Below, in pieces: positions 18,786-34,187 of a stretch of 34,630 bases of DNA. Made by a program: the position numbers and the translations under genes. The stretch is from a virus, in IMG/VR virus record IMGVR_UViG_3300030328_000745, positions 7,540 through 42,169 of that record; one strand, written 5' to 3'. A model generated the notes under the pieces. The model ran no database searches and was not told where the DNA came from. It saw only the letters and a program-made list of their open reading frames with translations. Within the stretch, counting starts at the first letter, position 1. Each line of letters starts with the position of its first letter.

Positions 18786-19000
18786 TCAATCTGGATGAAA
18801 AATTTCACAGTTACTTAGAAACTGGACACACCAAAACATTTAAGATTGATGGTGTCAATGAACCTCTTACAGGTTATGGATATCATTGTGATGGTAATGA
18901 CATACAAGGCTATTGGGTATCGACAGAAAACTATAAGTTATACTATAATATGAATGAACAATTCATTAGGATGCACCCATTGAGGGAGCTTGCTAAATAA
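18782..19000 (+). CDS. Small hypothetical protein
   Basis: This is a 72-residue soluble protein, MINLDEKFHSYLETGHTKTF at the start, rich in Tyr, Gly and Asn (TGYGYHCDGNDIQGYWVSTE) and with no membrane helix or motif I know. It is accepted because it has normal codon use and a four-base overlap with the upstream gene, and ends 19 bases before the transaldolase start. No function can be proposed. The compact Tyr/Trp-rich middle suggests a small beta fold. Confidence 0.6.
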   Translation: MINLDEKFHSYLETGHTKTFKIDGVNEPLTGYGYHCDGNDIQGYWVSTENYKLYYNMNEQFIRMHPLRELAK

Positions 19001-19019
19001 AACGAGTCAATTTTACTCA

Positions 19020-19673
19020 ATGCAAATCTTTCTAGACACTGCCGAAATTGATGTGGTTAAAAGTCACATGGAAACCGGCTTGATAGATGGGGTCACAACG
19101 AACCCCAGTTTAATTCTGAAGTCAGGCGCAGAATTAAATCCACGGATAAAAGAATTAGTTGAGGCTGGAGTACCAGACATTAGTGCTGAGGTAGTTGGAG
19201 AAACTGCTGAAGAAATGTTATCTATGGCTGAAACTCTTGTCCCATTAGGTTCTTCCGTAACCATTAAAGTTCCATGTACAATGGAAGGTTTAAAGGCCTG
19301 TAGACAACTGAGTCTTCAAGGAACTAGGGTTAATGTAACTCTAGTTTTTAGTGTATCTCAGGCTATTCTATCTGCTAAGGCAGGTGCAGCTTATGTTTCA
19401 CCTTTTATTGGTAGATTGGATGACCAGAGATTAGGCGGAATCGATTTAGTGAAAGAGATCGCTACTCTGTATAGAGAACAATTGGTCAGAACTAAAGTTT
19501 TGGCTGCATCAACCAGATCTGTCTACGATGTAGAAAGAGCATTTGAGGTTGGTGCTGATGTAGTTACTATGCCTCCAAAACTATTCAAAGAAATGTACGA
19601 TCATGCCCTCACGGATCAAGGAATCGAAAAGTTCAATTCCGATTGGGAGGAAGCCATTAAAAGTAAAAAATAG
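19020..19673 (+). CDS. talC: Transaldolase, TalC / fructose-6-P aldolase-like type
   Basis: Transaldolase moves a dihydroxyacetone unit between sugar phosphates in the pentose phosphate pathway. Phage copies are thought to push host carbon towards NADPH and pentose for nucleotides. I choose the ATG at 19020 (MQIFLDTAEIDVV), since the family begins this way; a start at 18990 would run back into the previous gene. The product is 217 residues, normal for the short TalC class. D6, TTNPS (26-30), the Schiff-base K83 in TIKVPCT, and VSPFIGRLDD are all present. It lies a few kilobases downstream of RNR and upstream of psbA, matching the known metabolic gene set of cyanomyoviruses. No Shine-Dalgarno sequence is obvious. 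Confidence 0.95.
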   Translation: MQIFLDTAEIDVVKSHMETGLIDGVTTNPSLILKSGAELNPRIKELVEAGVPDISAEVVGETAEEMLSMAETLVPLGSSVTIKVPCTMEGLKACRQLSLQGTRVNVTLVFSVSQAILSAKAGAAYVSPFIGRLDDQRLGGIDLVKEIATLYREQLVRTKVLAASTRSVYDVERAFEVGADVVTMPPKLFKEMYDHALTDQGIEKFNSDWEEAIKSKK

Positions 19674-19762: not shown

Positions 19763-19981
19763 ATGTCTTTAGTACAAAAGTTCAAGAAACATCTTGACAC
19801 TCTTGCCCAGACTGCTGATAGAACGTTAGAATTAGACTATAAAGATCCAAAACTTTACAAAAAGATCCTACGATATTATAGGGATCATGACATAGAATTT
19901 TATGATGATCCATACGACACTTATGAACTCGTCGTCGAACTCCTCACAGAAGACCTCCACGAAACAGGGGTCTTGGCGTGA
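19763..19981 (+). CDS. Small acidic hypothetical protein
   Basis: This 72-residue protein is MSLVQKFKKHLDTLAQTADR at the start, then KKILRYYRDHDIEFYDDPYD, and ends LLTEDLHETGVLA. It is helical and acidic with several aromatic residues. I considered CP12, the Calvin-cycle inhibitor common in cyanophages next to talC, but the Cys pairs of CP12 are absent, so I leave it unassigned. A purine-rich AAACAGGAAA leader precedes the ATG. The last 60 bases overlap the next gene and are noticeably C-rich. Confidence 0.65.
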   Translation: MSLVQKFKKHLDTLAQTADRTLELDYKDPKLYKKILRYYRDHDIEFYDDPYDTYELVVELLTEDLHETGVLA

Positions 19982-20441
19982 TGTAAAGATATTCTATGAG
20001 GTTCTTTCTTCACAAGAAAGAGAGAACTTATTAGAACAATCTAAACCTTTATTAGGAAAGGTATCAGAATTACATCCAGGCTTACAAACAGATACTAATC
20101 TGAATGAGGTCTTTACTGGAAAAGAATTTTATAATCCTTTTCCAAAGTTTTGTGATCTGATTAATGTGGATGCAGAACTTGTCTCTGCTTGGGTCAATTG
20201 CATTGATTCAGAAGTTAAGTTATCATGGCATACACATACTGATTTTTATCCAGAGTACAGATATACATCTGTTTACATGCTGGATAATCCTGAAAGTTTA
20301 GGAACAGCATTTCTAATGGAGGATGCGGAGTATCATCTTCCGGCTCCCACAAATTCTCTATTAGTATTTCCTTCAAACTACACACATTCTAATCCTCTTG
20401 TACAAAGTACAAGATATACTCTTGCTATGGATTTCTCTTAA
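19923..20441 (+). CDS. 2-oxoglutarate/Fe(II) oxygenase-like protein
   Basis: I use the ATG at 19923 (172 residues); ATGs at 19902 and 19905 are equally open, and the first residues look unconserved (Ser/Asn/Thr-rich). The clear domain begins at WRDVKIFYEVLSSQE. LSWHTHTDFYPEYRYTSVYM has an HxHxD arrangement for iron, PSNYTHSNP supplies the distal His, and RYTLAMDFS the 2OG-binding Arg. This is the best-formed of the three oxygenases in the window. The substrate is unknown. The start overlaps the small acidic gene and the stop overlaps the next ATG (TAATG), implying co-translation with the HAD phosphatase. Confidence 0.75.
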   Translation: MNSSSNSSQKTSTKQGSWRDVKIFYEVLSSQERENLLEQSKPLLGKVSELHPGLQTDTNLNEVFTGKEFYNPFPKFCDLINVDAELVSAWVNCIDSEVKLSWHTHTDFYPEYRYTSVYMLDNPESLGTAFLMEDAEYHLPAPTNSLLVFPSNYTHSNPLVQSTRYTLAMDFS

Positions 20442-20755
20442 TGAAATATGTTTTTGATTTAGATGGTACTTTATGTGAGACTTTCTCTAATCCAGATGGT
20501 CATGGAATGAAGTACTTTGAAGCTACACCCTATAAGGATAGGATAGAAAAAGTTAATAAACTATGGGAGGAAGGTCACGAGATTATTATTGAAACTGCAC
20601 GAGGATGCGGTACAAAAATCAATCATTATGAAAGAACCTTTGATCAGTTAAGATCATGGGGATTAAAATTTACTACCTTAAGAACAGGTGTTAAATTTGG
20701 TGGAGATTTATTCATTGATGATAAAGGAATAAACAGTGAGGATTTTTTTAAATGA
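20441..20755 (+). CDS. Small HAD-family phosphatase
   Basis: This 104-residue protein begins MKYVFDLDGTLCETF, with the HAD nucleophile Asp and second Asp. ETARGCGT is motif II and LFIDDKGINSEDFF the terminal acidic motif. The size and motifs fit the capless HAD group found in capsule and LPS biosynthesis (KDO-8-P phosphatase-like). It probably removes phosphate from a sugar phosphate. This suits its place just ahead of the glycan cassette. Stop-start overlaps on both sides (TAATG and ATGA) show it is part of a continuous translation unit. Confidence 0.78.
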   Translation: MKYVFDLDGTLCETFSNPDGHGMKYFEATPYKDRIEKVNKLWEEGHEIIIETARGCGTKINHYERTFDQLRSWGLKFTTLRTGVKFGGDLFIDDKGINSEDFFK

Positions 20756-20979
20756 AATATACTACAATACATTCTCAAGGGCCATATCGTTTCGTTCATA
20801 CGGACAAACCTTTACCTAATGGAAAACTTGATTTTCGTATTCAAAAGATGGGACAATATTCTCCCAAGTACAAGGACATGTATCTCTTAGACAATCAAAT
20901 GCAATTAGATACTTGTTTAGAAGATCCTGAGTATACTAAATGGTTAGATCCAGAAGGTGTACCTGCATATCGTAAATAA
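20752..20979 (+). CDS. Small hypothetical protein
   Basis: This 75-residue protein starts MKYTTIHSQGPYRFVHTDKP and ends DPEYTKWLDPEGVPAYRK. It is rich in Tyr, Asp, Lys and Pro, is soluble, and has no known motif. It overlaps the HAD gene by four bases, so it is very likely translated. The stop is followed by a short AT-rich spacer with a TAAATAAATA stretch, possibly a weak late-type promoter, and a GAGGTAACG ribosome binding site for the epimerase. Function unknown. Confidence 0.6.
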   Translation: MKYTTIHSQGPYRFVHTDKPLPNGKLDFRIQKMGQYSPKYKDMYLLDNQMQLDTCLEDPEYTKWLDPEGVPAYRK

Positions 20980-20994
20980 ATACCGAGGTAACGA

Positions 20995-22119
20995 ATGGTG
21001 AAAATGAAGACAGCATTAGTTTTAGGAGCAGGTGGATTTATCGGTTCCCATATGGTAAAGAGACTCAGGAGTGAAGGGTATTGGGTCAGAGGTGTTGATC
21101 TAAAACATCCCGAATTCTCAAGACATCAAGCTAATGAGTTTGTATTAGGAGATTTAAGAGACAAGAGTTTCGTTAATAGGATAGTAGAATATAAAGGAGA
21201 ACTTGGTAATTTCTTTAATCAAGTTCCTTATAAAATGGTTGAAGGATTTGATGAGGTATATCAATTTGCTGCTGACATGGGTGGTGCAGGTTTTATTTTC
21301 ACAGGTGAAAATGATGCAGACATCATGCACAACTCAGCATCGATTAATATTAATCTTTTAGATGCTTTAGTTAAGAATAATAGTCAAGGACGTAAAATGC
21401 CTAAAGTCTTTTATTCTTCTTCTGCTTGTGCATATCCTTCAGAGATTCAAGAAGATGTAAACAATCCAGGCCTTCGTGAGGAGGATGCTTACCCTGCAAA
21501 CCCTGATTCAGATTATGGATGGGAAAAATTATTCTCAGAACGTCTCTACCATGCTTACGCTCGTAACCATGACTTTGATGTTCGCATTGCTCGTTATCAC
21601 AACATCTATGGGCCAGAAGGAACTTGGGATGGAGGTAGAGAAAAAGCTCCTGCAGCAATGTGCAGAAAGGTCGCACTTGTTGACTCTGGAGAAGGTGAAA
21701 TTGAATGTTGGGGTGATGGAGAACAAACTAGATCATTCTTGTTTGTAGATGATTGTATTGAGGCTACACGTAGACTCATGGAAAGTAATTGTTCTGATGT
21801 AATCAATATAGGTTCTGAAGAGATGGTTACTATTAATCAACTTATCTCTTATGCTGCTCAAGCTGCTGATAAGAAAATATCTATTAAACATATTGATGGC
21901 CCACAGGGAGTTCGTGGACGTAACTCACAGAATGATATGATCCGTGATGTTCTTAAGTGGGATTATACTGTTTCACTTAAAGAAGGTATTAAGAGAACGT
22001 ATGAATGGATAGAGGAACAAATATATGAGTTGGAAGAAATTCAAGATCATCAGTCTACACATTTGAAGACACTTGAAGAATTGGATAATGATCTATACGT
22101 TGGAGTTTTTGATTCGTGA
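20995..22119 (+). CDS. NAD-dependent sugar epimerase, GDP-mannose 3,5-epimerase-like
   Basis: This is a 374-residue short-chain dehydrogenase/reductase-type epimerase. Residues 11-18 (GAGGFIGS) bind NAD. VYQFAADMGGAGFI, FYSSSACAYP and the YGWEK Tyr/Lys pair form the active site, and RYHNIYGPEGTWDGGREKAP is highly characteristic of GDP-mannose 3,5-epimerases. Those enzymes make GDP-L-galactose (and L-gulose) from GDP-mannose. With the PMM-like gene and the GT11 gene that follows, this suggests an L-galactose or related residue in a phage-specified glycan. It is the first gene of the 9.6 kb cassette; GAGG precedes the ATG by a few bases. It overlaps the GT11 gene by four bases. Confidence 0.85.
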   Translation: MVKMKTALVLGAGGFIGSHMVKRLRSEGYWVRGVDLKHPEFSRHQANEFVLGDLRDKSFVNRIVEYKGELGNFFNQVPYKMVEGFDEVYQFAADMGGAGFIFTGENDADIMHNSASININLLDALVKNNSQGRKMPKVFYSSSACAYPSEIQEDVNNPGLREEDAYPANPDSDYGWEKLFSERLYHAYARNHDFDVRIARYHNIYGPEGTWDGGREKAPAAMCRKVALVDSGEGEIECWGDGEQTRSFLFVDDCIEATRRLMESNCSDVINIGSEEMVTINQLISYAAQAADKKISIKHIDGPQGVRGRNSQNDMIRDVLKWDYTVSLKEGIKRTYEWIEEQIYELEEIQDHQSTHLKTLEELDNDLYVGVFDS

Positions 22120-22934
22120 TTGGTTTTAATGCATTGGGTCAACTGGGACAGTTGGGAAACCAAATGTTCCAGATAGCTTCTCTACGAGGCATAGCTGCTA
22201 ATAGAGGATATAATTATTGTTTTCCAATTCATCAACATGTAACTGTAGATGCTTTAGGAAACAATCTTAGAATTGATATTCAAAACCCATTTACCTTACA
22301 GAATATCAATCCACTGAATATTCAGGCAATTGATCCTGATAGACCAGTGGTTAATGAAGATGGATTCCATTTCAATGAGGGTATCTTTAATGAGTGTCCT
22401 GATTGGGTGGATCTTCGTGGTTTCTTTCAGACAGAAAAGTATTTTGTTCACGTTAAAGATATGATACGTGAGATGTTTACATTCAGGCCTGAGATTCTTG
22501 ATCCTGCTCGTCAGATGGTTGAGAGTTTAAATAAGGTTCCTGTTGCTTTACATATTAGACGAGGAGATTTCTTAAGGAACTCTGGTAATCATCACAATCT
22601 TTCTATAGATTGGTATGGTAGAGCATTAGATAAGATTAATCTTGATGGTCGTCAGGTTGTTATCTTTAGTGATGATCCTGATTGGTGTAGAGAACAACAG
22701 GTGTTTGGAGATGATGATAAGTTTCTTGTAAGTGAAAGTAATAATCATTATACTGATCTTGCATTAATGTCATTGTGTAGTGGCCATATTATTGCAAACT
22801 CTACTTACTCATGGTGGGGTGCATGGTTAGCTGATAGTAAGGAAGTTATTGCGCCTGCAAAATGGTTTGGCCCTGATAACGAACATTTAAGTATAGAGGA
22901 TCTTTATTGTGATCATTGGGAGGTTTTAGAATGA
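22116..22934 (+). CDS. GT11 family (alpha-1,2-fucosyltransferase-like) glycosyltransferase
   Basis: This 272-residue protein starts at GTG (GTGA overlap with the epimerase). GQLGNQMFQIASLRGIA is the N-terminal GT11 signature, VALHIRRGDF the GDP-sugar-binding HxRRxD motif, and ANSTYSWWGAWL the C-terminal conserved block. GT11 enzymes transfer L-fucose, and some L-galactose, from the GDP sugar in an inverting reaction. GDP-L-galactose made by the upstream epimerase would be a natural donor, since L-galactose is the C6-hydroxy analogue of L-fucose. No membrane helix, so it is cytoplasmic or peripheral. Confidence in the family is high; the donor is inference from context. Confidence 0.88.
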   Translation: MIGFNALGQLGQLGNQMFQIASLRGIAANRGYNYCFPIHQHVTVDALGNNLRIDIQNPFTLQNINPLNIQAIDPDRPVVNEDGFHFNEGIFNECPDWVDLRGFFQTEKYFVHVKDMIREMFTFRPEILDPARQMVESLNKVPVALHIRRGDFLRNSGNHHNLSIDWYGRALDKINLDGRQVVIFSDDPDWCREQQVFGDDDKFLVSESNNHYTDLALMSLCSGHIIANSTYSWWGAWLADSKEVIAPAKWFGPDNEHLSIEDLYCDHWEVLE

Positions 22935-23647
22935 AAGTAGCCGTAGTGTTTATTGGTACAGAAAAGTACCTTGACTTTCTTCCTAGTTGGTATGAGAGAT
23001 GCGAAGAGAATCTTATGCCTGGAGTAGATAAAGATTATCTGGTATTTACTGATGGACAACTTGACGAAATGCCTGATAATGCATATTATTATCATCAAGA
23101 ACATCTTGATTGGCCTTACATTACATTGTATAGGTTTAAAATAATTGAGAAGGCAGCCAAACGGATTAAAGAATGTGATTATCTTTTATTCCTTGATGCA
23201 GATATGGCTGTAGTAGATACAGTTAAGAAAGAAGATGTTCTAACTGATAAACCTTACATTGGGGTTTGGCATCCATGTCACTTCCTTCAGTTCCCTCCTC
23301 ATAATAATGCGCCAGGATCCTTTGAGATCAATCCTTTATCATGTGCTAAAGTTCCAGAGGGATATGATTTTTCAACCTATTGGCAGGGTTGCCTGTGGGG
23401 TGGTAAGGTTCCTGAAGTACTTGGTATGATGAAAGAACTTCATAACCGTGTAGAGATAGATGAGAAGAATAAAGTAATTGCCAAGTGGCATGATGAGAGT
23501 CATATAAATTGTTTCTATGTAGAGCATAAGGATCAAGTTCATACACTTGGCCCTGAATATGCCTTCCCTGAAGTCTTTGCTGATTCATGTGACTTCCAAC
23601 CTAAAATTGTTCATCTAGCAAAAGATAATAGTAAGTATCATGTCTAA
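22931..23647 (+). CDS. GT6 family glycosyltransferase (ABO/alpha-1,3-GalT-like)
   Basis: This is a 238-residue catalytic domain from the ATG at 22931, overlapping GT11 by four bases. Motifs in order: VVFIGTEKYLDFLPSW, YLVFTD, the metal-binding DAD (residues 89-91), GVWHPCHF, YWQGCLWGGKV and WHDESH (186-191), then LGPEYAFPE. These match the catalytic core of GT6, the family of mammalian ABO transferases, without a membrane anchor or stem. GT6 enzymes add Gal or GalNAc alpha-1,3 with retention, often to a fucosylated acceptor, so following a GT11 is meaningful. The DxD matches metal-dependent members; many bacterial GT6 have NxN instead. A cyanophage GT6 is known, so the family is not new here. 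Confidence 0.87.
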   Translation: MKVAVVFIGTEKYLDFLPSWYERCEENLMPGVDKDYLVFTDGQLDEMPDNAYYYHQEHLDWPYITLYRFKIIEKAAKRIKECDYLLFLDADMAVVDTVKKEDVLTDKPYIGVWHPCHFLQFPPHNNAPGSFEINPLSCAKVPEGYDFSTYWQGCLWGGKVPEVLGMMKELHNRVEIDEKNKVIAKWHDESHINCFYVEHKDQVHTLGPEYAFPEVFADSCDFQPKIVHLAKDNSKYHV

Positions 23648-24290
23648 GATTGCCATTGTTTACTCTGGTCAACCCAGAGCTTTGAGAGAGTGTTATCCCA
23701 ATCATAAGAAATTTTTATTCGATCCTAATTCAAAGAATGAAATAGATTTTTTCTATCATCTATGGGTTACTGATGAAGATAAAACAATTGATTATTACTG
23801 TAAGGAATTATGGAATGTTAAGGATGGTGTCTGGGATAATCCTAAAGATTTTTCACACGACACTATTGTTCCTGACCCTGCAGCTCCTCATCCATTAAAC
23901 AACATTGTTTCACAGGCATATGGATTCCAAGAAGCGTTTGGGTTGATGGATAAATATGTCAAGGAGAACGGTGAATACGACATTGTTGTAAGAACCAGAA
24001 CCGACAATTGGTTCGTTGAAGAGATGGGAGATCTTTCAGATTATGATTCAGAAGGACTTCATATCACAGATATTACCAGTCATGAGGACTATGCATTAGG
24101 AGATACTTTTGCATGGGGTGACTATAAGTCAATGACATCTTACCTTAATTTGTACAACAACTTCGAGGAGATTGTTAACGAGGGGGCTAGAGTAAATCCA
24201 GAATGTCTGTTAGGATGGGCCATTAAGAGAGATAATATTAAGGTGCATAAGCACTCTATATACCCTAAACTTTTCCGTGATGTTGGATGA
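23640..24290 (+). CDS. GQPR-motif putative glycosyltransferase, paralog 1
   Basis: This 216-residue protein is MSKIAIVYSGQPRALRECYP at the start, with FFYHLWV and later NNIVSQAYGFQEA and VVRTRTDNWF. The order GQPR, D/F-Y-H-x-W, N-x-[IL]-x-SQ, R-x-D is shared with the genes at 25663 and 27438, so the three are paralogs. The RxD segment could be the nucleotide-sugar/metal site of a GT-A fold, which together with context makes a glycosyltransferase likely, but the family is not one I can name. It overlaps the GT6 gene by eight bases and the next by four. Confidence 0.65.
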   Translation: MSKIAIVYSGQPRALRECYPNHKKFLFDPNSKNEIDFFYHLWVTDEDKTIDYYCKELWNVKDGVWDNPKDFSHDTIVPDPAAPHPLNNIVSQAYGFQEAFGLMDKYVKENGEYDIVVRTRTDNWFVEEMGDLSDYDSEGLHITDITSHEDYALGDTFAWGDYKSMTSYLNLYNNFEEIVNEGARVNPECLLGWAIKRDNIKVHKHSIYPKLFRDVG

Positions 24291-25663
24291 CTAAACTTGT
24301 TATTTTTGACCTTGATGGGGTCTTGATTGATAGTAAGGATTTTCATTTCGATGCTCTTAACCTTGCATTGGGAGAGGAGTATGCGATTAGTAGAGAAGAA
24401 CATGTTAGTACCTATGATGGTCTTCCTACAACAGCCAAATTAAAACTTCTTACAGAGAAGAAAGGACTTCCTGTAGATAGTTACGAAACTATTTGGAACG
24501 AAAAACAAAAACAAACCTTCAAAGTCTTTAACGAACAGGTTCGTCAAGACTATGAGTTGATGGGATTCTTTCGTCAACTTAAAGATGAAGGTTATTCGAT
24601 TACTGTTGCGTCTAATAGTATTCGTAACACCGTAAAGATTATTCTCTTACGATTGGGACTTACTGAGTTTGTTGATTACTATGTTTCTAATGAGGATGTA
24701 GTTAGAAATAAACCATTTCCCTCTATGTACTGGCAGTGTATGATGACTATGGGTGCCTTACCCAAAGACACTGTTATAATAGAGGATAGTCATGTAGGTC
24801 GTCAGGGTGCTATTGATAGTAAGTGTCATCTAGTAGCTGTTGATGATCGTGCGGATCTTAATCAACAGAAGATTGATAAGATTAAATCCATTCTTAATGG
24901 GAAAACCAAGAAAAAAATTGCATGGAGGTCTGAGAAAATGAATGTATTGGTTCCTATGGCTGGTGCAGGTAGCCGTTTTGCTAGTCAAGGTTATACCTTC
25001 CCCAAACCATTGATTGAAGTGAGAGGAAAACCAATGATCCAAGTGGTCGTTGAAGGATTGAATGTTGAGGCCAAATATACTTACGTAGTTCAGAAGGAAC
25101 ATTATGAGAAGTATCAACTTGAATATCTTTTAAATCTATTAACTCCTGATTGTAATATTGTTCAAGTAGATGGTATCACAGAGGGTGCTGCATGTACTAC
25201 ATTACTTGCAAAGGAGTTTATTGATAATGATGAGTCATTAATTCTTACTAATTCCGATCAATTAATTCTATGGGATAGTAATGAAACTCTTTATGCATTT
25301 AATAATGATAATGCAGACGGTGGAATTATTACATTCCCTGCTACACATCCTAAGTGGTCTTTTGCAAAACTTGGTGAGGATGGATATGTATCTGAGGTTG
25401 CTGAGAAAAGACCTATCTCAGAACATGCAACTGCTGGTATCTACTACTGGAAGAAAGGATCTGATTATGTTAAGTATGCAGAACAGATGATTGAAAAAGA
25501 TATTCGTGTTAACAATGAATACTATGTTTGTCCTGTATATAATGAAGCTATAGAGGATGGTAAGAAGATTCGTATCAAGGAGATTGGTACACAAGATATG
25601 TGGGGATTAGGAACTCCAGAAGATCTTAAGTATTTCTTAGAGAATTATAAAGGAGAAGTCTGA
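24287..25663 (+). CDS. Fusion of HAD phosphatase and sugar nucleotidyltransferase
   Basis: This is one 458-residue frame with two domains. Residues 1-200 are a beta-phosphoglucomutase-like HAD: VIFDLDGVLIDSKDFHF, SNSIRNTVK, then RNKPFP and IIEDSHVGRQGA. Residues 218-458 are a sugar-phosphate nucleotidyltransferase: MNVLVPMAGAGSRF (P-loop-like), YTFPKPLIEVRGKPMIQ, LILTNSDQL and a late WGLGTPEDL. Together they could process a sugar phosphate and activate it as an NDP sugar. The second domain has its own ATG (24938) behind a good GGAGG ribosome binding site (24924-24928), so it may also be made alone. A short Lys-rich linker joins the domains. It is coupled by 4-base and 1-base overlaps to neighbours. 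Confidence 0.83.
   Translation: MTKLVIFDLDGVLIDSKDFHFDALNLALGEEYAISREEHVSTYDGLPTTAKLKLLTEKKGLPVDSYETIWNEKQKQTFKVFNEQVRQDYELMGFFRQLKDEGYSITVASNSIRNTVKIILLRLGLTEFVDYYVSNEDVVRNKPFPSMYWQCMMTMGALPKDTVIIEDSHVGRQGAIDSKCHLVAVDDRADLNQQKIDKIKSILNGKTKKKIAWRSEKMNVLVPMAGAGSRFASQGYTFPKPLIEVRGKPMIQVVVEGLNVEAKYTYVVQKEHYEKYQLEYLLNLLTPDCNIVQVDGITEGAACTTLLAKEFIDNDESLILTNSDQLILWDSNETLYAFNNDNADGGIITFPATHPKWSFAKLGEDGYVSEVAEKRPISEHATAGIYYWKKGSDYVKYAEQMIEKDIRVNNEYYVCPVYNEAIEDGKKIRIKEIGTQDMWGLGTPEDLKYFLENYKGEV
24924..24928 (+). promoter_or_regulatory. Internal ribosome binding site for the nucleotidyltransferase domain
   Basis: GGAGG lies nine bases before an in-frame ATG (24938) that starts exactly at the nucleotidyltransferase domain. 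It is one of the strongest Shine-Dalgarno matches in the cassette, although it sits inside a continuous coding frame. Confidence 0.6.
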
Positions 25664-26391
25664 TGAAAGTCGCCCTTTTATTTTTTGGTCAACCAAGGTA
25701 TCTTGATGATGAGAGGCCGTTTAATGATTATAAACGGCTAATTCTTGATCGTTATGACACCGATGTGTACATACATACATGGTTTGATGAAGAGGGTGGT
25801 AAATATGATGTATCAACATGGGCTGAAATGCATGGTGCTAAGAACTGTGTAATTCTTCCCGATGCAATTGAAAGACTTGAGAGATTATACAATCCTAAAG
25901 TTTTAGTTCATGAGAAACCTCAGAAGTTTGAACTCCCTCCAGATTGTAAAGCTTTTGTAGATGAAAAGTTTACTGGTAAACATCCTGAAGGACATTGGAA
26001 CTCAGGTAATTACAGTAATATTATGTCTCAGTTGAAAACTATTCAGAGAGTTGCAGAACTCTATGAAGAAACAGGTGACAGACATGATATAATAGTCTTA
26101 GCAAGACTTGATACTTACTTAGAGAATTTCCCTGAAGATCTATCTGAATTAGATCCTAATAAATTCTATCTACCAGGCCATCATCCAAGATTCCCAGATG
26201 TTATTCATGTATGTGGACGTAAATATCTTGGATGGATGAAAAATGCATTTACTGATATTAATCACCCAAGAGTATTCCATAATATATGGGAACCATCTCC
26301 TGAGGCCTTTAAAGGAAATGCATTTCTGTTAAGATATAGTCAATCTGATCTTGCTCCTCATCCAATGAATGCTCATACTATTCGCAAATGA
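25663..26391 (+). CDS. GQPR-motif putative glycosyltransferase, paralog 2
   Basis: This 242-residue protein starts MKVALLFFGQPRYLDDERPF and then has DTDVYIHTWFDEE, SNIMSQLKTIQRV and IIVLARLDTYLENFP, followed by GHHPRFPDVIHVCGRKY. It shares all four landmarks with the genes at 23640 and 27438 and is closest to the latter (KVA..FGQPR, D[TA]DVY, FPD). A role as glycosyltransferase is inferred from context and the RxD motif. It starts within the stop of the HAD fusion (TGATG) and overlaps the following HAD gene by four bases. Confidence 0.65.
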   Translation: MKVALLFFGQPRYLDDERPFNDYKRLILDRYDTDVYIHTWFDEEGGKYDVSTWAEMHGAKNCVILPDAIERLERLYNPKVLVHEKPQKFELPPDCKAFVDEKFTGKHPEGHWNSGNYSNIMSQLKTIQRVAELYEETGDRHDIIVLARLDTYLENFPEDLSELDPNKFYLPGHHPRFPDVIHVCGRKYLGWMKNAFTDINHPRVFHNIWEPSPEAFKGNAFLLRYSQSDLAPHPMNAHTIRK

Positions 26392-27065
26392 ATAATATAA
26401 AACTGTGTATCTTTGATGTTGATGGAGTGATTGTAAACAGTCGAGCACTTCATTATCCCTCAACTGCTTCTGCATTGAGGGACTTTGGTTGTGAATATTC
26501 TCGTGAGGAAGATGAAGCCTTTGGGACAATTCCTACTAGAGAAAAATTGGAGAGATTATCAGAATGTGGACAGATACAAGAAGAAGAGATTGAAAAAATA
26601 TGGCAGTTAAAGGACTATCACCTTTGTTTAAACTTCGACAAAGGAGTTCTTCTGAATAAAAATATTAAAAGTTTGTTTCAGGAGTTGAGATCCCGTGACA
26701 TATACATTGCCTTAGGATCAAATGCACGGTATAGTTTCTTAGAGAAGGTTGTAAAAGCTCTTGATGTTGCTCAATGTATTAATCATATAACGAGCGCACA
26801 AAATATGATCTCTAAACCAGATCCTTACATGTATGTTCAGGAGATGAAGAGGTTTGAGGTTGAACCAGATAATACTCTCATCTTTGAGGACAGTGAAGTT
26901 GGCCGACAAGCTGCATATTCTAGTGGAGCTTGGGTCTATGAAGTTGATTCTTATGACGAACTCTCAATTGAAATTCTAAATGAAATTAATAGCTCATCGG
27001 GCCAATTTAAACGGCCCTTGCCCATCTACAGAGAACAATCCAAAACAGATAGACTCGTGTATTGA
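26388..27065 (+). CDS. HAD-family sugar phosphatase/mutase-like protein
   Basis: This 225-residue protein has LCIFDVDGVIVNSRALHY as the HAD nucleophile motif, YIALGSNARYSF as motif II, ISKPDPYMY with the conserved Lys, and IFEDSEVGRQAA as the last acidic motif. It is a paralog of the HAD half of the fusion protein at 24287, sharing IEDS/FEDS-x-VGRQ-A. It most likely acts on a phosphorylated sugar; beta-phosphoglucomutase-like or phosphatase activity cannot be separated by eye. The last 86 bases overlap the GDPD-like gene. It starts on an ATGA overlap. Confidence 0.8.
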   Translation: MNNIKLCIFDVDGVIVNSRALHYPSTASALRDFGCEYSREEDEAFGTIPTREKLERLSECGQIQEEEIEKIWQLKDYHLCLNFDKGVLLNKNIKSLFQELRSRDIYIALGSNARYSFLEKVVKALDVAQCINHITSAQNMISKPDPYMYVQEMKRFEVEPDNTLIFEDSEVGRQAAYSSGAWVYEVDSYDELSIEILNEINSSSGQFKRPLPIYREQSKTDRLVY

Positions 27066-27441
27066 GTCTGGATATGATGTTGAGATTGATTTACGTTATG
27101 ATCAAGCCACTGATGTTCTATGGTTAGGTCATGATGAACCACAGTACTCAGTAACTTGGTGGTGGTTGTCTGGTAGAGCAGAGAATCTTTGGATACATTG
27201 CAAAGATCTTACTACCTTACATGAGTTCACTACTCAGACTAAAGGGTATAATTTCTTTTATCATAATAAGGATGATTATACTTTAACAAGTAAACAATTT
27301 ATTTGGGCATTTCCAGGCAAATCATATTCAGAGAATACTGTTGTTGTAATGCCTGAGTGGCAAGAAGATAGAGATTGGGATGTATTGAGAGCCACTAATT
27401 GTCATGGAGTTTGTAGTGACTTTGTGGAGAGATTGGTATGA
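26980..27441 (+). CDS. Glycerophosphodiester phosphodiesterase-like protein
   Basis: This 153-residue protein starts MKLIAHRANLNGPCPSTENN, with the HR and EN residues of the GDPD active site. GYDVEIDLRYDQATDVLWLG then HDEPQYSV supply the ExD metal ligands and the second catalytic His. It is shorter than typical GDPD proteins (over 220 residues): the C-terminal part of the barrel is reduced. Members of this kind occur in bacterial polysaccharide loci. It might cleave or transfer a glycerophosphate or other phosphodiester group on the glycan. It begins inside the HAD gene (86-base overlap) and overlaps the next gene by four bases. Confidence 0.72.
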   Translation: MKLIAHRANLNGPCPSTENNPKQIDSCIESGYDVEIDLRYDQATDVLWLGHDEPQYSVTWWWLSGRAENLWIHCKDLTTLHEFTTQTKGYNFFYHNKDDYTLTSKQFIWAFPGKSYSENTVVVMPEWQEDRDWDVLRATNCHGVCSDFVERLV

Positions 27442-28184
27442 AAGTAGCATGTTTATACTACGGTCAACCTAGATTTACTGACAATCCATATTGTTATGAG
27501 AGTCATAAGAAATTTATATTCGACAAGTATGATGCTGATGTTTATGCTCATCTCTGGTGGGATGAGGATGAAGATTATGATAGATCACATGTAACTGATT
27601 GGGAATTTTCTTCTTGGCTTCAGATGGAGAAATGCCCTAAAGATCCTAATGATCTTGAAAGGTTTGTTGATAAGTGGAAACCTCTAAAGATGAAGACCTC
27701 CAAACCAAAGGAGTTCTGGAATCAACCTATGTGGGATGAGATTGAAAAGAGATATGATACAGAGAGATTTCATAAAAAGAATTTTCATAATCAGTTATCA
27801 CAACTATATTCTGTTCAACAAGTTAGTGAACTTATAGGTGATAATATTAGAGATTATGATTTTGTTATCACTATCAGGACAGATATAAATATCTGGGACT
27901 ATCCAGATCTGAATCAATTACCGACGAATAAGTTATATCTTTCAAATCATGCGATGCCTTTTCCTGATTTAGGATTTATATTTCCGCCTAGATTTAGAAG
28001 ATTCCTTAGAACTTATGAACATTGTGAAAAGAATCTGGTGAATTGGGATGCTTGTTGGGCCCCTGTTGCAGAGGCCTTTAAGTATTCTTGTTTTAAACGT
28101 AATTATAGTGAGACGGATTTGTTGCGTGCTCCACTTCCGTTAAGACTAGTACGTGGTGTAGATTGTAAAGGGCCTACTTGGTAA
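27438..28184 (+). CDS. GQPR-motif putative glycosyltransferase, paralog 3
   Basis: This 248-residue protein starts MKVACLYYGQPRFTDNPYCY and has DADVYAHLWWDEDEDYD, FHNQLSQLYSVQQV, FVITIRTDINIWDYP and MPFPDLGFIFPPRFRRF. It is the third member of the in-window family with the genes at 23640 and 25663. Conserved spacing between GQPR and RxD suggests one fold with divergent acceptors. No membrane helix. It overlaps the GDPD-like gene by four bases and shares its stop with the next start (TAATG). Confidence is limited for the reaction, higher for the paralogy. Confidence 0.65.
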   Translation: MKVACLYYGQPRFTDNPYCYESHKKFIFDKYDADVYAHLWWDEDEDYDRSHVTDWEFSSWLQMEKCPKDPNDLERFVDKWKPLKMKTSKPKEFWNQPMWDEIEKRYDTERFHKKNFHNQLSQLYSVQQVSELIGDNIRDYDFVITIRTDINIWDYPDLNQLPTNKLYLSNHAMPFPDLGFIFPPRFRRFLRTYEHCEKNLVNWDACWAPVAEAFKYSCFKRNYSETDLLRAPLPLRLVRGVDCKGPTW

Positions 28185-28906
28185 TGAAAAAAGTTTCTGA
28201 TCATTGTTGGGGTACTCCCAAGTGCGGAATATCCTTACTAACAAATGTATTTGCTAAGATAGAGAAACCTGTTCAGTATAGGTTTCTTCTAGCTAGAAAT
28301 CCATACTATAGAGTGTTTAGTGTCTATACTGAAAAAGCCATTGATGTTAATGGTCGGTATGCTAAACAACATAAAATTAATAAAGACAATCATACCATTC
28401 GTGGTATTGAGATGAGGCGATCAACTGCTGAGGTTATTCCTATTGGAAGAATTGACAGAGTTGATAGAATGAGCTTCAAAGATTTTGTTTTGGCATTGAA
28501 TAGGAGTTGGTTGAATGAACATTCAACTGGTAATCTTCATATTGCCAGACAAGTTACAGATATGGCTCCATTCGTTTTTGATGATATCTTCTGGTTGGAA
28601 GATGTTCCTAACTGTTTTAAAATAGCTAGTGAAAAATTAGGATGTAAGCCAGGTGAGATACCTCTCGATAAGGATCTTCTATGGAAGATGGGTGGTACTG
28701 ATAACTGGAGGAAGGGTGATCATCATGGGACTCCTAGAAGTGATGATCTGAATAGATTAGCAGAACCATATAAGTTACCTGCTATGTTCTGGTGGAATGA
28801 GGATGCAGTTCCTTCTAATTATGATATAATGTTTGATGATGAGATGAGAGAACATATCTATGATCTCTATCATGAAGACTTCGATTACCTTGGAATAAAG
28901 AAATGA
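28184..28906 (+). CDS. Sulfotransferase-like protein
   Basis: This is 240 residues from the ATG at 28184, directly overlapping the previous stop; a TTG at 28178 is possible. Residues 11-17 (TPKCGIS) resemble the 5'-phosphosulfate-binding loop, and RNPYYRVFSVY (38-48) the 3'-phosphate-binding motif of PAPS-dependent carbohydrate sulfotransferases. The C-terminal IYDLYHEDFDYLGI resembles the end of the Sulfotransfer_2 family. If correct, it would add sulfate from PAPS to the glycan. The classical loop has Lys in PKxGxT; here Lys is retained (K13). It is coupled by ATGA to the GT4 gene. Family assignment is by motif only. Confidence 0.7.
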   Translation: MKKVSDHCWGTPKCGISLLTNVFAKIEKPVQYRFLLARNPYYRVFSVYTEKAIDVNGRYAKQHKINKDNHTIRGIEMRRSTAEVIPIGRIDRVDRMSFKDFVLALNRSWLNEHSTGNLHIARQVTDMAPFVFDDIFWLEDVPNCFKIASEKLGCKPGEIPLDKDLLWKMGGTDNWRKGDHHGTPRSDDLNRLAEPYKLPAMFWWNEDAVPSNYDIMFDDEMREHIYDLYHEDFDYLGIKK

Positions 28907-29853
28907 AGATTACACTGATTGGCCCTGGCATTATGCCCATACCTCCTACAGGTTGGGGTGCATGTGAAATCCTGATATGGGATACTAAACTTGCACTTGA
29001 AGAACTGGGCCATGAGGTTCAGATAATCAATACCAAGGATGGGCGACAAATTATTAATGAAATCAACAACTTTAGGCCGGACTTTGTACATGTTCACTAC
29101 GATGAGTTTATTCCCATCGTACCTTTTATACAATATCCCAACGCTATTACTAGTCACTTCGGATACCTTGAACGCCGTGAGATGTTTAATGGATACATCA
29201 ACGTGGCGAATGAGTTCATGCGTATTAAACCAAATATATTCTGCCTCTCAGAAGGCATCAAGAAGGTTTACAATGTTATGTTTGACGTACCTTCCAAGAA
29301 TACATGGGTTACTCCTAATGGTGTCAATACTGATACTTTCTCTTATGTTGACGATCCTCAGCACCCTGATAGGAGTCTCTACCTTGCCAAAATTGACCAT
29401 AGAAAACGACAACATTTATTTCAGTCGATATCTTCTCTGTGGTATGCTGGCAATATCGCTGACAATAGATTTGATACATCTAAGAATTATCTTGGAGAGT
29501 GGTCAAAAGACAAACTCTACAATGAACTAACAGAATATGGAAACCTAGTTCTCTTATCAGATGGTGAAGCTCATCCACTAGTTTGTATGGAGGCCTTGAT
29601 ATCTGGATTAGGTGTGGTAGTATGTGAGTGGGGTAAGGCTAATCTTGATACTGATAAGGAATTCATTACAGTTATTAATGAAAAGAATATTGAAGATCTT
29701 GGTTACTTAGAATATGAAATCGTAAAGAATAGAGAGTACTCTGTTGCCCATAGAGAAGAGATTAGAGAATATGGTAAACAGTTTGCATGGACAAACGTAC
29801 TTAAGAAACATTACATCCCTGCCGTTGAAGAGGTAATTGCCAAACATGGATAG
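28903..29853 (+). CDS. GT4-like (GT-B fold) glycosyltransferase
   Basis: This is a 316-residue protein. The N-terminal Rossmann half begins MKITLIGPGIMPIPPTGWGA with the Gly-rich acceptor loop, followed by PDFVHVHYDEF. The C-terminal half has VTPNGVNTDTF, YLAKIDHRKRQ and LLSDGEAHPLVCMEALISG, the EX7E-type donor-binding motif of retaining GT4 enzymes. It is slightly short for GT4 (usually 350-400), with a compact donor domain. It probably transfers a hexose from an NDP sugar to the growing glycan. It overlaps the sulfotransferase-like gene by four bases and the GT25 gene by eight. Confidence 0.85.
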   Translation: MKITLIGPGIMPIPPTGWGACEILIWDTKLALEELGHEVQIINTKDGRQIINEINNFRPDFVHVHYDEFIPIVPFIQYPNAITSHFGYLERREMFNGYINVANEFMRIKPNIFCLSEGIKKVYNVMFDVPSKNTWVTPNGVNTDTFSYVDDPQHPDRSLYLAKIDHRKRQHLFQSISSLWYAGNIADNRFDTSKNYLGEWSKDKLYNELTEYGNLVLLSDGEAHPLVCMEALISGLGVVVCEWGKANLDTDKEFITVINEKNIEDLGYLEYEIVKNREYSVAHREEIREYGKQFAWTNVLKKHYIPAVEEVIAKHG

Positions 29854-30610
29854 AAACAAAGCCGCTTATAAACTAAACGATTTTGGCCCTTTGTATATCA
29901 TCAATCTTGATGATCAACCAGAGAGATGGGATTGGATGAAGGAACAATTAGAATATTGGAACATAGAAAACTATGAAAGAATGTCTGCTTTTGATGGACG
30001 TAATAGTGATCTAAGTGAAATTCTTTCTGGTCGTTATCCAAATGCCGTATCTGCTCCTGAGATTGGTTGTGTAACATCTCATCTAAGATCTATTAAACAT
30101 TGGTACGATACCACTGACACTGAGTACGGTATCTTTATGGAAGATGACTGTGATCTTTGTTCGGTTTCCCACTGGCCCTTCTCATGGAGAGAAGTAATGA
30201 ATCGTATGCCATACGATTGGGATTGCTTTCAGATTGCAGTTATTAATCCAAGAAAGTTAGTTGCTAATATACATCCAAGATATGTTGATGATTATTCTAC
30301 TGCTGCCTTTGTTATTAATCGTAGATATGCCGAGAAGTTAATGCATTTCCATTGTAGAGGTGACAAATTTAAACTCGATAATGGGGTGCGGCCTCGTGCT
30401 GTGGCAGACGATTTAATATACAATGCTGGTAAGACCTATGCGATGCCACTTTTACTGTATAAGATCGAATTAGGGTCATCTATACATGAGGATCATGTAG
30501 ATAGTTTCCATAAGAATTCTAGAATTGGATTAGATCATTTCTGGACTAATCAAGCTACTGATCTTCCGATTGATCATTTCTTCCAGTACGATACACACGA
30601 ACTCGGTTAA
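29846..30610 (+). CDS. GT25 family glycosyltransferase
   Basis: This is 254 residues from the ATG at 29846, overlapping the GT4 stop; a TTG at 29837 is possible. YIINLDDQPERWDWM, EIGCVTSHLRSIKHW, GIFMEDDCDL (EDD at 99-101) and AVADDLIYN follow the order of GT25, the family of LPS beta-galactosyltransferases and collagen galactosyltransferases. It is the last gene of the cassette. A 12-base perfect palindrome (30603-30614) covers its stop codon, but there is no T-run, so termination there is uncertain. Confidence 0.87.
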   Translation: MDRNKAAYKLNDFGPLYIINLDDQPERWDWMKEQLEYWNIENYERMSAFDGRNSDLSEILSGRYPNAVSAPEIGCVTSHLRSIKHWYDTTDTEYGIFMEDDCDLCSVSHWPFSWREVMNRMPYDWDCFQIAVINPRKLVANIHPRYVDDYSTAAFVINRRYAEKLMHFHCRGDKFKLDNGVRPRAVADDLIYNAGKTYAMPLLLYKIELGSSIHEDHVDSFHKNSRIGLDHFWTNQATDLPIDHFFQYDTHELG

Positions 30611-30663: not shown

Positions 30664-30671
30664 TATAAATA
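30664..30671 (+). promoter_or_regulatory. T4-type late promoter octamer (TATAAATA)
   Basis: This exact consensus lies in the 181-base gap after the glycan cassette. A transcript from here would have a leader of about 115 bases before the ATG at 30792, much longer than for other late genes here. Confidence 0.75.
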
Positions 30672-30791: not shown

Positions 30792-31184
30792 ATGTCTATT
30801 AAGTCAACAATCGCTGCTGTTGCAGCATCTCCATTCCTCCTAGCTGGTGCAGCATTTGCTGGCCCATACGTGAATGTCGAGAGCAATCTTTCATATCCTG
30901 ATGGAGATTATTCTTCTGCTACAACTGACATCCACGTAGGATACGAAGGTGTTTCAGCTGAAGGTAAGTTAGGATATTACGTACAAGGCGGCCCAGCTCT
31001 TGTTCATACTGAGTCAACTGACGATACAGAAACAGAACTTTCTGGTAAGGTTGGTCTAAGTTATGCTATTGCTGATGCAACTAGCGTATACGGTGAACTC
31101 TCTGGAGTTTCTAACGGTGAAGATTCAACTGGTGACACAATCGTTGATTGGGGCGCTAAGGCTGGAGTTAAGTTCAACTTCTGA
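30792..31184 (+). CDS. Outer-membrane beta-barrel-like exported protein
   Basis: This 130-residue protein has a clear signal peptide (MSIKSTIAAVAASPFLLAGA with cleavage near AFA). The mature part has alternating polar and hydrophobic strands (TTDIHVGYEGVSAEGKLGYY, ELSGKVGLSYAI, SVYGELSGVS) and ends with Phe (GVKFNF), typical of outer-membrane barrels. At about 108 mature residues it would be a very small barrel of perhaps six to eight strands. Similar small exported proteins recur in cyanophages. A role in altering the host surface during infection is inference. It has its own late promoter, a long structured leader and an excellent terminator, so it forms a single-gene transcription unit. 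Confidence 0.78.
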   Translation: MSIKSTIAAVAASPFLLAGAAFAGPYVNVESNLSYPDGDYSSATTDIHVGYEGVSAEGKLGYYVQGGPALVHTESTDDTETELSGKVGLSYAIADATSVYGELSGVSNGEDSTGDTIVDWGAKAGVKFNF

Positions 31185-31207
31185 TCACTAAAGTGATATA
31201 ATTATAA

Positions 31208-31244: not shown

Positions 31245-31445
31245 ATGAAATTCGAGGATTACTACAAAGAGTTCTGCGAAGTTTTTGGACATCCTTTATG
31301 GCATATGCCAATGATGTTGATAGGTGTATTTTTTATGATAGAACTAATGCATACAAATGAACATTACAATATGGAAAGAGGTGATGCTCATGGATATTGT
31401 GGTCAAAAAGAATGGGTTAAAAAATTACAAAATGAATATTATTGA
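31245..31445 (+). CDS. Small His/Met-rich protein with one membrane-like segment
   Basis: This is 66 residues from the ATG at 31245 (MKFEDYYKEFCEVFGHPLWH); a TTG at 31233 would begin inside the terminator region. MPMMLIGVFFMIELMH is a likely membrane-associated helix and is followed by a His/Gly/Tyr-rich tail (ERGDAHGYCGQKEW). No family is recognised. It has no close promoter of its own, so it depends on readthrough of the terminator or an unseen start. Its stop codon is within the TTGACA of the next promoter. It is accepted mainly on composition, so moderate confidence. Confidence 0.55.
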   Translation: MKFEDYYKEFCEVFGHPLWHMPMMLIGVFFMIELMHTNEHYNMERGDAHGYCGQKEWVKKLQNEYY

Positions 31446-31471
31446 CAGAATAATATATAATATGATATAAT
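31442..31471 (+). promoter_or_regulatory. Near-consensus sigma70 promoter
   Basis: TTGACA (31442-31447) and TATAAT (31466-31471) are separated by 18 bases. Transcription should start around 31478, essentially at the ATG at 31479, which implies a leaderless or nearly leaderless mRNA. Recognition by host RNA polymerase would allow early expression. Confidence 0.8.
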
Positions 31472-32234: not shown

Positions 32235-32263
32235 TTGACATAATTTAATCTTTACTATATAAT
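32235..32263 (+). promoter_or_regulatory. Consensus sigma70 promoter for the hli genes
   Basis: TTGACA (32235-32240) and TATAAT (32258-32263) have ideal 17-base spacing. The start would be about 32270, 18 bases before the ATG at 32288. A small hairpin (TTCGG/CCGAA, 32209-32222) lies just upstream. The 121-base gap holds nothing else that I can see. Confidence 0.9.
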
Positions 32264-34004: not shown

Positions 34005-34033
34005 TTGACAAATCCTTAACAAAAAGTTATAAT
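34005..34033 (+). promoter_or_regulatory. Consensus sigma70 promoter of psbA
   Basis: TTGACA (34005-34010) and TATAAT (34028-34033) have ideal 17-base spacing. The start would be about 34040, giving a leader near 148 bases. An AATAAATAA stretch overlaps the -10 region and resembles the late consensus, so early and late expression from the same place is possible. Confidence 0.88.
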
Positions 34034-34115
34034 AAATAAATCGATGGGGATTTCCTCATCATACTCTTCCCGTTTAACCGAGACCTATGGGAAGTAAACA
34101 ACGTCTCTCATCCTA

Positions 34116-34140
34116 CCTGTAGATTCAAGGGTACTACAGG
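34116..34140 (+). other. Hairpin in the psbA leader
   Basis: CCTGTAG (34116-34122) and CTACAGG (34134-34140) form a perfect seven-base stem with an 11-base loop, 47 bases before the psbA ATG. There is no T-run after it, so a stability or translational role is more likely than termination. Confidence 0.6.
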
Positions 34141-34187
34141 AATCTAGTATCGCTGATTCCCTATCAGCCCTACTTAAAGTTGGACTA

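Follow-up and report, generated by a model that had tools for sequence, protein, structure and literature searches.

A 34,630-nucleotide stretch of viral DNA (the window hereafter; bases 7540-42169 of the 42,169-base record IMGVR_UViG_3300030328_000745) carries a glycan cassette of twelve consecutive plus-strand open reading frames (ORFs) at positions 20995-30610 (Table 1). The source virus is a T4-like cyanomyovirus whose closest annotated relatives are S-CAM9, S-PRM1 and S-8S53/55/56. We read the block as a modular glycan-decoration operon, and hold the full pathway proposed below with moderate confidence. This reading builds on what was directly observed, namely the protein families, their catalytic residues, the order and conservation of the genes, the swapping of a donor module between related loci, and the near-absence of GDP-mannose 3,5-epimerase (GME) from host genomes. 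The new observations are that the front of the cassette is modular, that the tree of its family 11 glycosyltransferase (GT11) follows the donor module, and that the hosts almost entirely lack GME.

In the proposed pathway, of which the substrates and linkages, the sequence of the steps, the sulfation, the destination and the benefit are all predictions, the phage GME would convert host GDP-D-mannose into GDP-L-galactose, and GT11 would transfer the L-sugar in alpha-1,2 linkage to a galactose-like acceptor. GT6 would then add galactose (Gal) or N-acetylgalactosamine (GalNAc) beside the L-sugar, according to the logic of the ABO antigens, with L-galactose replacing L-fucose. A HAD-nucleotidyltransferase fusion (HAD-NTP) and a GDPD-like protein, perhaps together with a second HAD protein, would provide a second activated building block, while three GT-A enzymes with a GQPR motif, GT4 and GT25 would lengthen the chain, and a sulfotransferase would cap it. 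The chain would be placed on a pre-existing acceptor, more probably a host envelope glycan such as the lipopolysaccharide (LPS) core and, in second place, virion proteins.

A scan of viral contigs revealed dozens of related loci, most of which contain GT11, GT6, GQPR, HAD-NTP, GDPD, GT4 and GT25 genes in near-constant order. This core is found with GME (for GDP-L-galactose) in 28 loci, a count that includes duplicates, with GMD and GDP-fucose synthase (GFS; for GDP-L-fucose) in 28 and with neither in 15. In DSL-LC03, from a lake, GMD and GFS stand exactly at the position of GME in the window, and there is no sulfotransferase gene.

Gene content and order were also compared with other cyanomyoviruses, and the block proved to be shared with S-CAM9, S-PRM1, S-8S53/55/56 and viral contigs. 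Both the order and the spacing of the genes are repeated in S-CAM9, S-PRM1 and S-8S55/56 (at 43-90% protein identity to the window) and in contigs such as L012, L013, L015 and L016, and the cassette is therefore far beyond chance; in the contig L011/L027 the cassette proteins are 97-100% identical to those of the window. The cassette occupies the same site as the glycan/LPS islands of the T4-like cyanophages S-CAM9, S-PRM1, S-8S53/55/56, DSL-LC03, Bellamy and S-SCSM1, that is, downstream of nrdAB (in many also of talC) and upstream of hli/psbA. In the records of these islands, the genes are annotated piecemeal, several of them as hypothetical. Earlier papers list GME, fucose and LPS genes of cyanophages for S-SCSM1 (PMC9602691) and for DSL-LC02/03 (PMC10611076). 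Full-text searches of the literature, most subscription journals lying outside their scope, found no paper that treats the block as a single pathway or reports the exchange of donor modules.

The first-pass annotation had described twelve consecutive overlapping genes with no terminator inside, and both points were borne out. The overlaps are, in order, 4, 4, 8, 4, 1, 4, 86, 4, 1, 4 and ~8 bp, assuming ATG starts at 22931, 28184 and 29846, and this spacing, like the gene order, recurs in the relatives. The 86-bp overlap between the second HAD gene and the GDPD-like gene is real, because the start of the latter (M-K-L/I-I-A/S-H-R) is kept in relatives. In S-CAM9 and S-PRM1 the corresponding overlap is 98 bp, and on account of it both annotations overlook the true start of the GDPD-like gene and make the gene too short (L002 14988-15446 and L003 13888-14346). 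No convincing terminator was found within the cassette; the plus-strand matches at 22955, 25715 and 26621 are inside coding regions and have no proper run of T. The G+C content of the cassette (0.369) is that of the preceding sequence (0.370), and there is therefore no compositional sign of recent import.

P0001 is a GME with every catalytic residue, predicted to catalyse the step from GDP-mannose to GDP-L-galactose. Its best PDB matches are to plant GME (2c59/2c54, E ~1e-82; next family 1e-22), an enzyme that plants employ mainly for ascorbate. With the residues described in PMC6678494 as reference, the GxxGxxG motif, the catalytic Cys and Lys, YxxxK and Arg were found in P0001 and in 28/28 aligned phage GME sequences; they are common to the Methylacidiphilum enzyme GM35E (PMC6678494). 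The L-sugar donor step suggested by the initial annotation is thereby supported. Unlike the characterized GMEs, the enzyme of the cassette is phage-encoded and coupled to a GT11.

The GT11 motif H-x-R-R/G-x-D is present in 70/70 relatives, and a PDB search with the GT11 protein gave no sequence match. The GT6 protein scores 86 bits against a Pfam cut-off of 25, and its best PDB matches are BoGT6a and the ABO transferases; at 168.6 bits, against the 250 required by NCBIfam NF041524, it belongs to the GT6 family but not to that bacterial subfamily. It carries a DXD motif (LDADM), as do 64/64 phage GT6 proteins compared, whereas most bacterial GT6 enzymes have NXN instead (PMC3961637). In most loci the gene immediately after GT11 is that of GT6. 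The same two families act in the synthesis of ABO histo-blood-group antigens, and in the cassette they adjoin, the GT6 being of the DXD type; the donor module of the cassette, however, is predicted to yield GDP-L-galactose and not GDP-L-fucose. By analogy, the succession of GT11 and GT6 fits the ABO logic, in which L-galactose or L-fucose would be added first and Gal or GalNAc afterwards. The coupling of GME, GT11 and GT6 in that order, as first suggested, finds support in the adjacency of the genes, in the GT11 phylogeny, which tracks the donor module, and in the 2'-fucosylated acceptor, 2'-fucosyllactose, on which a GT6 homologue acts (PMC3961637).

The supply of donors by the host was examined in 201 genomes of the family to which a Prochlorococcus single-cell genome belongs, i.e. 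the picocyanobacterial host family. GMD was found in 129/201 genomes and GME in 1/201 (L169, in an apparently genuine host surface-polysaccharide neighbourhood); as the completeness of these genomes is not reported, absence from a single genome means little, and it is the contrast between GMD and GME that counts. GT6 is represented by one distant copy, and the sulfotransferase profile matched 0/201 genomes in a search made without a positive control. Since GMD is common in the hosts, GDP-mannose and probably GDP-fucose are available there, while the near-absence of GME means that the phage brings a step that its hosts lack. A fucose-type GT11 could therefore often draw on the host, which a GME-type GT11 usually could not.

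Gene trees were compared for the 24 loci in which the main genes are complete. Donor type requires a single change on the GT11 and GT4 trees, two on those of GQPR2 and GT25, three on that of GT6 and five on that of HAD-NTP; on a larger GT11 tree it requires three. Loci with no donor module are nearly confined to the fucose-side GT11 clade (10/28 vs 1/23; Fisher p=0.007, a value only indicative, being uncorrected for the relatedness of the sequences), in keeping with hosts that have GMD but not GME. The pattern fits a GT11 travelling with its donor module.

It is possible, although we doubt it, that the donor swap is a matter of linked recombination only and that GT11 takes any GDP-L-sugar, an alternative that concerns donor specificity alone. 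GT11 adjoins the donor genes, and the GT4 tree behaves in a similar way; yet GT6, which is the next gene, tracks donor type less well, the GT11 lineage of L071/L077/L079 stays with GME across a distance of ~6-7 kb, and the donor-less loci fall almost only on the fucose side. Some observations do weigh against donor-specific coupling. GT4 lies at the far end of the cassette and tracks donor type just as well as GT11, so that the GT11 pattern could be accounted for by lineage or linkage and nothing else; moreover, the GT11 of the fucose-type locus L094 groups within the GME side, and that of L008, whose donor gene is GME, groups on the fucose side. The expectation that GT11 alone would track the donor module was accordingly downgraded, GT4 being its equal on the common set.

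The family assignments of the first-pass annotation hold, with refinements. Pfam cut-offs were reached for the GME-type epimerase, GT11, GT6, HAD_2 with NTP_transferase, HAD_2, Sulfotransfer_2, GT4 and GT25, while the identities of the GDPD-like and GQPR proteins required profile and structure evidence. The three GQPR proteins are paralogues within a single PHROG of unknown function. Profile searches with them gave only chance-level matches to PDB sequences, and for this reason the assignment was made by structure; a GQPR scan of genome contigs brought up no relative. The model of GQPR3, built from 28 sequences (pLDDT 86.5, pTM 0.87), retrieved GT-A glycosyltransferases in Foldseek, i.e. GT6, B3GalT5 and glycogenin (best 2.6e-6, TM ~0.45). 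An invariant R147-x-D149 stands at the DXD position, after the strand that bears DXD in the GT-A fold. The modelled structure suggests that the GQPR proteins are most likely an unclassified family of GT-A-fold glycosyltransferases, an assignment at fold level only, considering the modest TM-scores (~0.45) and the replacement of D-x-D by R-x-D. They would provide three further glycosyltransferases, and therefore seven of the twelve cassette genes would encode such enzymes.

The HAD-NTP protein P0005, whose nucleotidyltransferase domain is nearest to PDB 4evw, is among the most conserved cassette proteins across locus types. In P0008 the GDPD catalytic motifs HR, E, ExD and HD are invariant, and the top Foldseek match of its only partly confident model is a GDPD (1.6e-3). 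Because it is short (153 aa) and without a Pfam match, falling short of a full-length TIM barrel that reaches the Pfam cut-off, it is best called GDPD-like in spite of these motifs. HAD-NTP fusions, mostly 45-70% identical, occur in SAR11, SAR86, Prochlorococcus, Poseidoniales, Lokiarchaeota and others (L095-L162). In bacteria and archaea they often adjoin a GDPD-like gene amid apparent polysaccharide genes (33 loci of the main cluster have a GDPD-like gene). The pair, being widespread in marine bacteria and archaea, is thus an ancient unit of two genes, one that would supply an activated building block of some kind; its bacterial neighbourhoods gave no clue to the substrate.

As regards sulfation, which had been suggested as a possibility, Sulfotransfer_2 matches 7/7 aligned sequences (best relative 6e-9), and motifs of the 5'-phosphosulfate-binding and 3'-phosphate-binding type (5'-PSB/3'-PB; GTPKCGISL-type and RNPYxRxxSxY) are conserved, on visual comparison with the known consensus. 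P0010 itself, however, reaches 22.9 bits against a cut-off of 22, a margin of just 0.9 bits, and a profile search against the PDB gave no match. The gene is found only among GME-type loci, of which L014, L028, L029 and L061 lack it, and is the most divergent of the cassette (43-50% identity). We regard it as coding for an accessory, fast-evolving putative enzyme, and sulfation of the glycan as no more than plausible.

No transmembrane-like hydrophobic stretch was seen in the cassette proteins, which all look soluble. Initiating transferases, flippases or transporters, polymerases and oligosaccharyltransferases were found neither in the cassette nor in the S-CAM9 annotations examined (all but the last 12 kb), and the cassette is not a self-contained polysaccharide locus of the Wzx/Wzy or ABC type. 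The first-pass statement that the phage builds its own oligosaccharide is therefore unsupported as worded, since the acceptor must come from elsewhere; with soluble products and no carrier, flippase or polymerase, the glycan probably decorates an existing acceptor, either a host envelope glycan or a virion protein.

Between these two we lean towards the host envelope, to which the outer-membrane-protein-like (OMP-like) gene next to the cassette and the adjacent GT25 point; GT25 and GT4 are both typical LPS families. Still, nothing firmly places the product there rather than on the virion. Transfer of the glycan in the cytoplasm to proteins of the virion (tail fibres, capsid), which would change adsorption or shield the particle, is a serious rival, even if we consider it the less probable outcome: it would suit soluble enzymes, the absence of export genes from the cassette, the scant time that a lytic phage has for rebuilding an envelope, and the three tail-fibre genes of S-CAM9. 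It fits less well with the neighbouring OMP-like gene, the LPS-type GT25 and GT4, and a cassette devoid of oligosaccharyltransferase or of any obvious protein O-glycosyltransferase.

Two functions other than glycan decoration were also considered. Feeding of free nucleotide sugars or sugar phosphates into central metabolism, as an auxiliary metabolic role, could be imagined from the transaldolase gene just upstream (18990-19673) and from HAD phosphatases able to free sugars from sugar phosphates, but it is very improbable, as seven of the twelve genes, the glycosyltransferases, would then be left without a function. Modification of phage DNA by the glycosyltransferases is harder still to credit and was rejected: to our knowledge, no glycosyltransferase family of the cassette consists of DNA glucosyltransferases, the substrates of GT6 homologues are glycans, and the epimerase with GT11 and the sulfotransferase would be left unexplained. 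Such a role has been stated for the GT6 of DSL-LC02 and DSL-LC03 (PMC10611076).

Glycan genes of cyanophages are usually itemized singly as "LPS genes", and their comparison yields a specific pathway with testable chemistry, in which the phage supplies a nucleotide sugar almost never made by its hosts, so that L-galactose would be a clean marker of phage action. The GQPR proteins are identified as a probable glycosyltransferase family, and loci of the GME and fucose types offer natural pairs for probing the role of the glycan. More speculatively, and we think it rather unlikely in its entirety, the conserved core may act as an exchangeable sugar cartridge, whose first sugar changes from L-galactose to L-fucose or back when the donor module is exchanged along with its GT11, and which the sulfotransferase optionally caps; virion or host-surface glycans that hosts cannot make would then serve to escape or exclude competitors, in a variation resembling that of ABO antigens.

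Table 1. Coordinates of the cassette genes and of neighbouring ORFs in the window.
Feature	Position	Strand	Remarks
Small HAD-type phosphatase ORF	20441-20755	+	weak HAD_PNKP match, 0.006; 4-bp overlap with next ORF
75-aa ORF	20752-20979	+	ends 15 bp before GME
P0001, GDP-mannose 3,5-epimerase (GME)	20995-22119	+	best PDB match plant GME 2c59/2c54
P0002, GT11, alpha-1,2-L-fucosyl/L-galactosyl transferase-like	22116-22934	+	PF01531 4e-25
P0003, GT6, alpha-1,3-Gal/GalNAc transferase-like	22931-23647	+	ATG 22931, alternative TTG 22916; PF03414 2e-24
GQPR1, probable GT-A-fold glycosyltransferase (by homology)	23640-24290	+	phrog_13607; paralogue of GQPR3
P0005, HAD phosphatase fused to sugar nucleotidyltransferase	24287-25663	+	PF13419 6e-24, PF00483 2e-10
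GQPR2, probable GT-A-fold glycosyltransferase (by homology)	25663-26391	+	phrog_13607 4e-70
P0007, second HAD phosphatase, beta-phosphoglucomutase-like	26388-27065	+	PF13419 3e-22
P0008, short GDPD-like phosphodiesterase, 153 aa	26980-27441	+	profile matches to GDPDs 3i10, 7e0v
GQPR3 (P0009), probable GT-A-fold glycosyltransferase	27438-28184	+	structure model
P0010, putative PAPS (3'-phosphoadenosine 5'-phosphosulfate)-dependent sulfotransferase	28184-28906	+	ATG 28184, alternative TTG 28178; Sulfotransfer_2
P0011, GT4-type glycosyltransferase	28903-29853	+	PF13439 4e-7
P0012, GT25 (LPS-type) glycosyltransferase	29846-30610	+	PF01755 1e-8; alternative TTG start 29837
Cyanophage OMP-like beta barrel	30792-31184	+	PF24653 1e-41

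The transcription unit probably starts upstream of GME, with the small HAD ORF as its 5' part, because this ORF and the 75-aa ORF adjoin the cassette. Just upstream of them, a 179-aa ORF (19902-20441) resembles, by eye, a 2OG-Fe(II) oxygenase and has no Pfam match.

The wcaG RNA (RF01761) was proposed in 2010 as a regulator of cyanophage exopolysaccharide genes (PMC2864571). Many relatives of the cassette have one just upstream (DSL-LC03, L019, L021, L022, L024, L026, L038, L039, L043 and L052; further upstream in L054), whereas none was found in the window or in its nearest GME-type kin. The idea that it marks loci of the fucose type was rejected, since the RNA is present in L052, a locus of the GME type, and absent from several loci of the fucose type. 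In DSL-LC03 the annotated start of GMD lies upstream of the wcaG RNA (L031 10348-10453), and the first ~45 codons are probably a misannotated RNA leader. A group I intron match (66 bits) was also noted in the related viral contig L043 (1357-1547).

The OMP-like gene, which in most loci of the GME type comes after the cassette, is probably a separate unit, with the late-promoter motif TATAAATA before it at 30664 and a terminator-like hairpin at 31206; it should be noted that the motif shows no clear enrichment across the window (7 observed vs 4.0 expected). In the small-gene region past the cassette there are three perfect (12/12) sigma-70 consensus promoters, at 31442-31471, 32235-32263 and 34005-34033. 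Finally, a PhotoRC-II RNA (RF01717, 50 bits) was found at 34054-34153 on the plus strand; in cyanophages this RNA usually precedes psbA, which would sit just past the end of the window.

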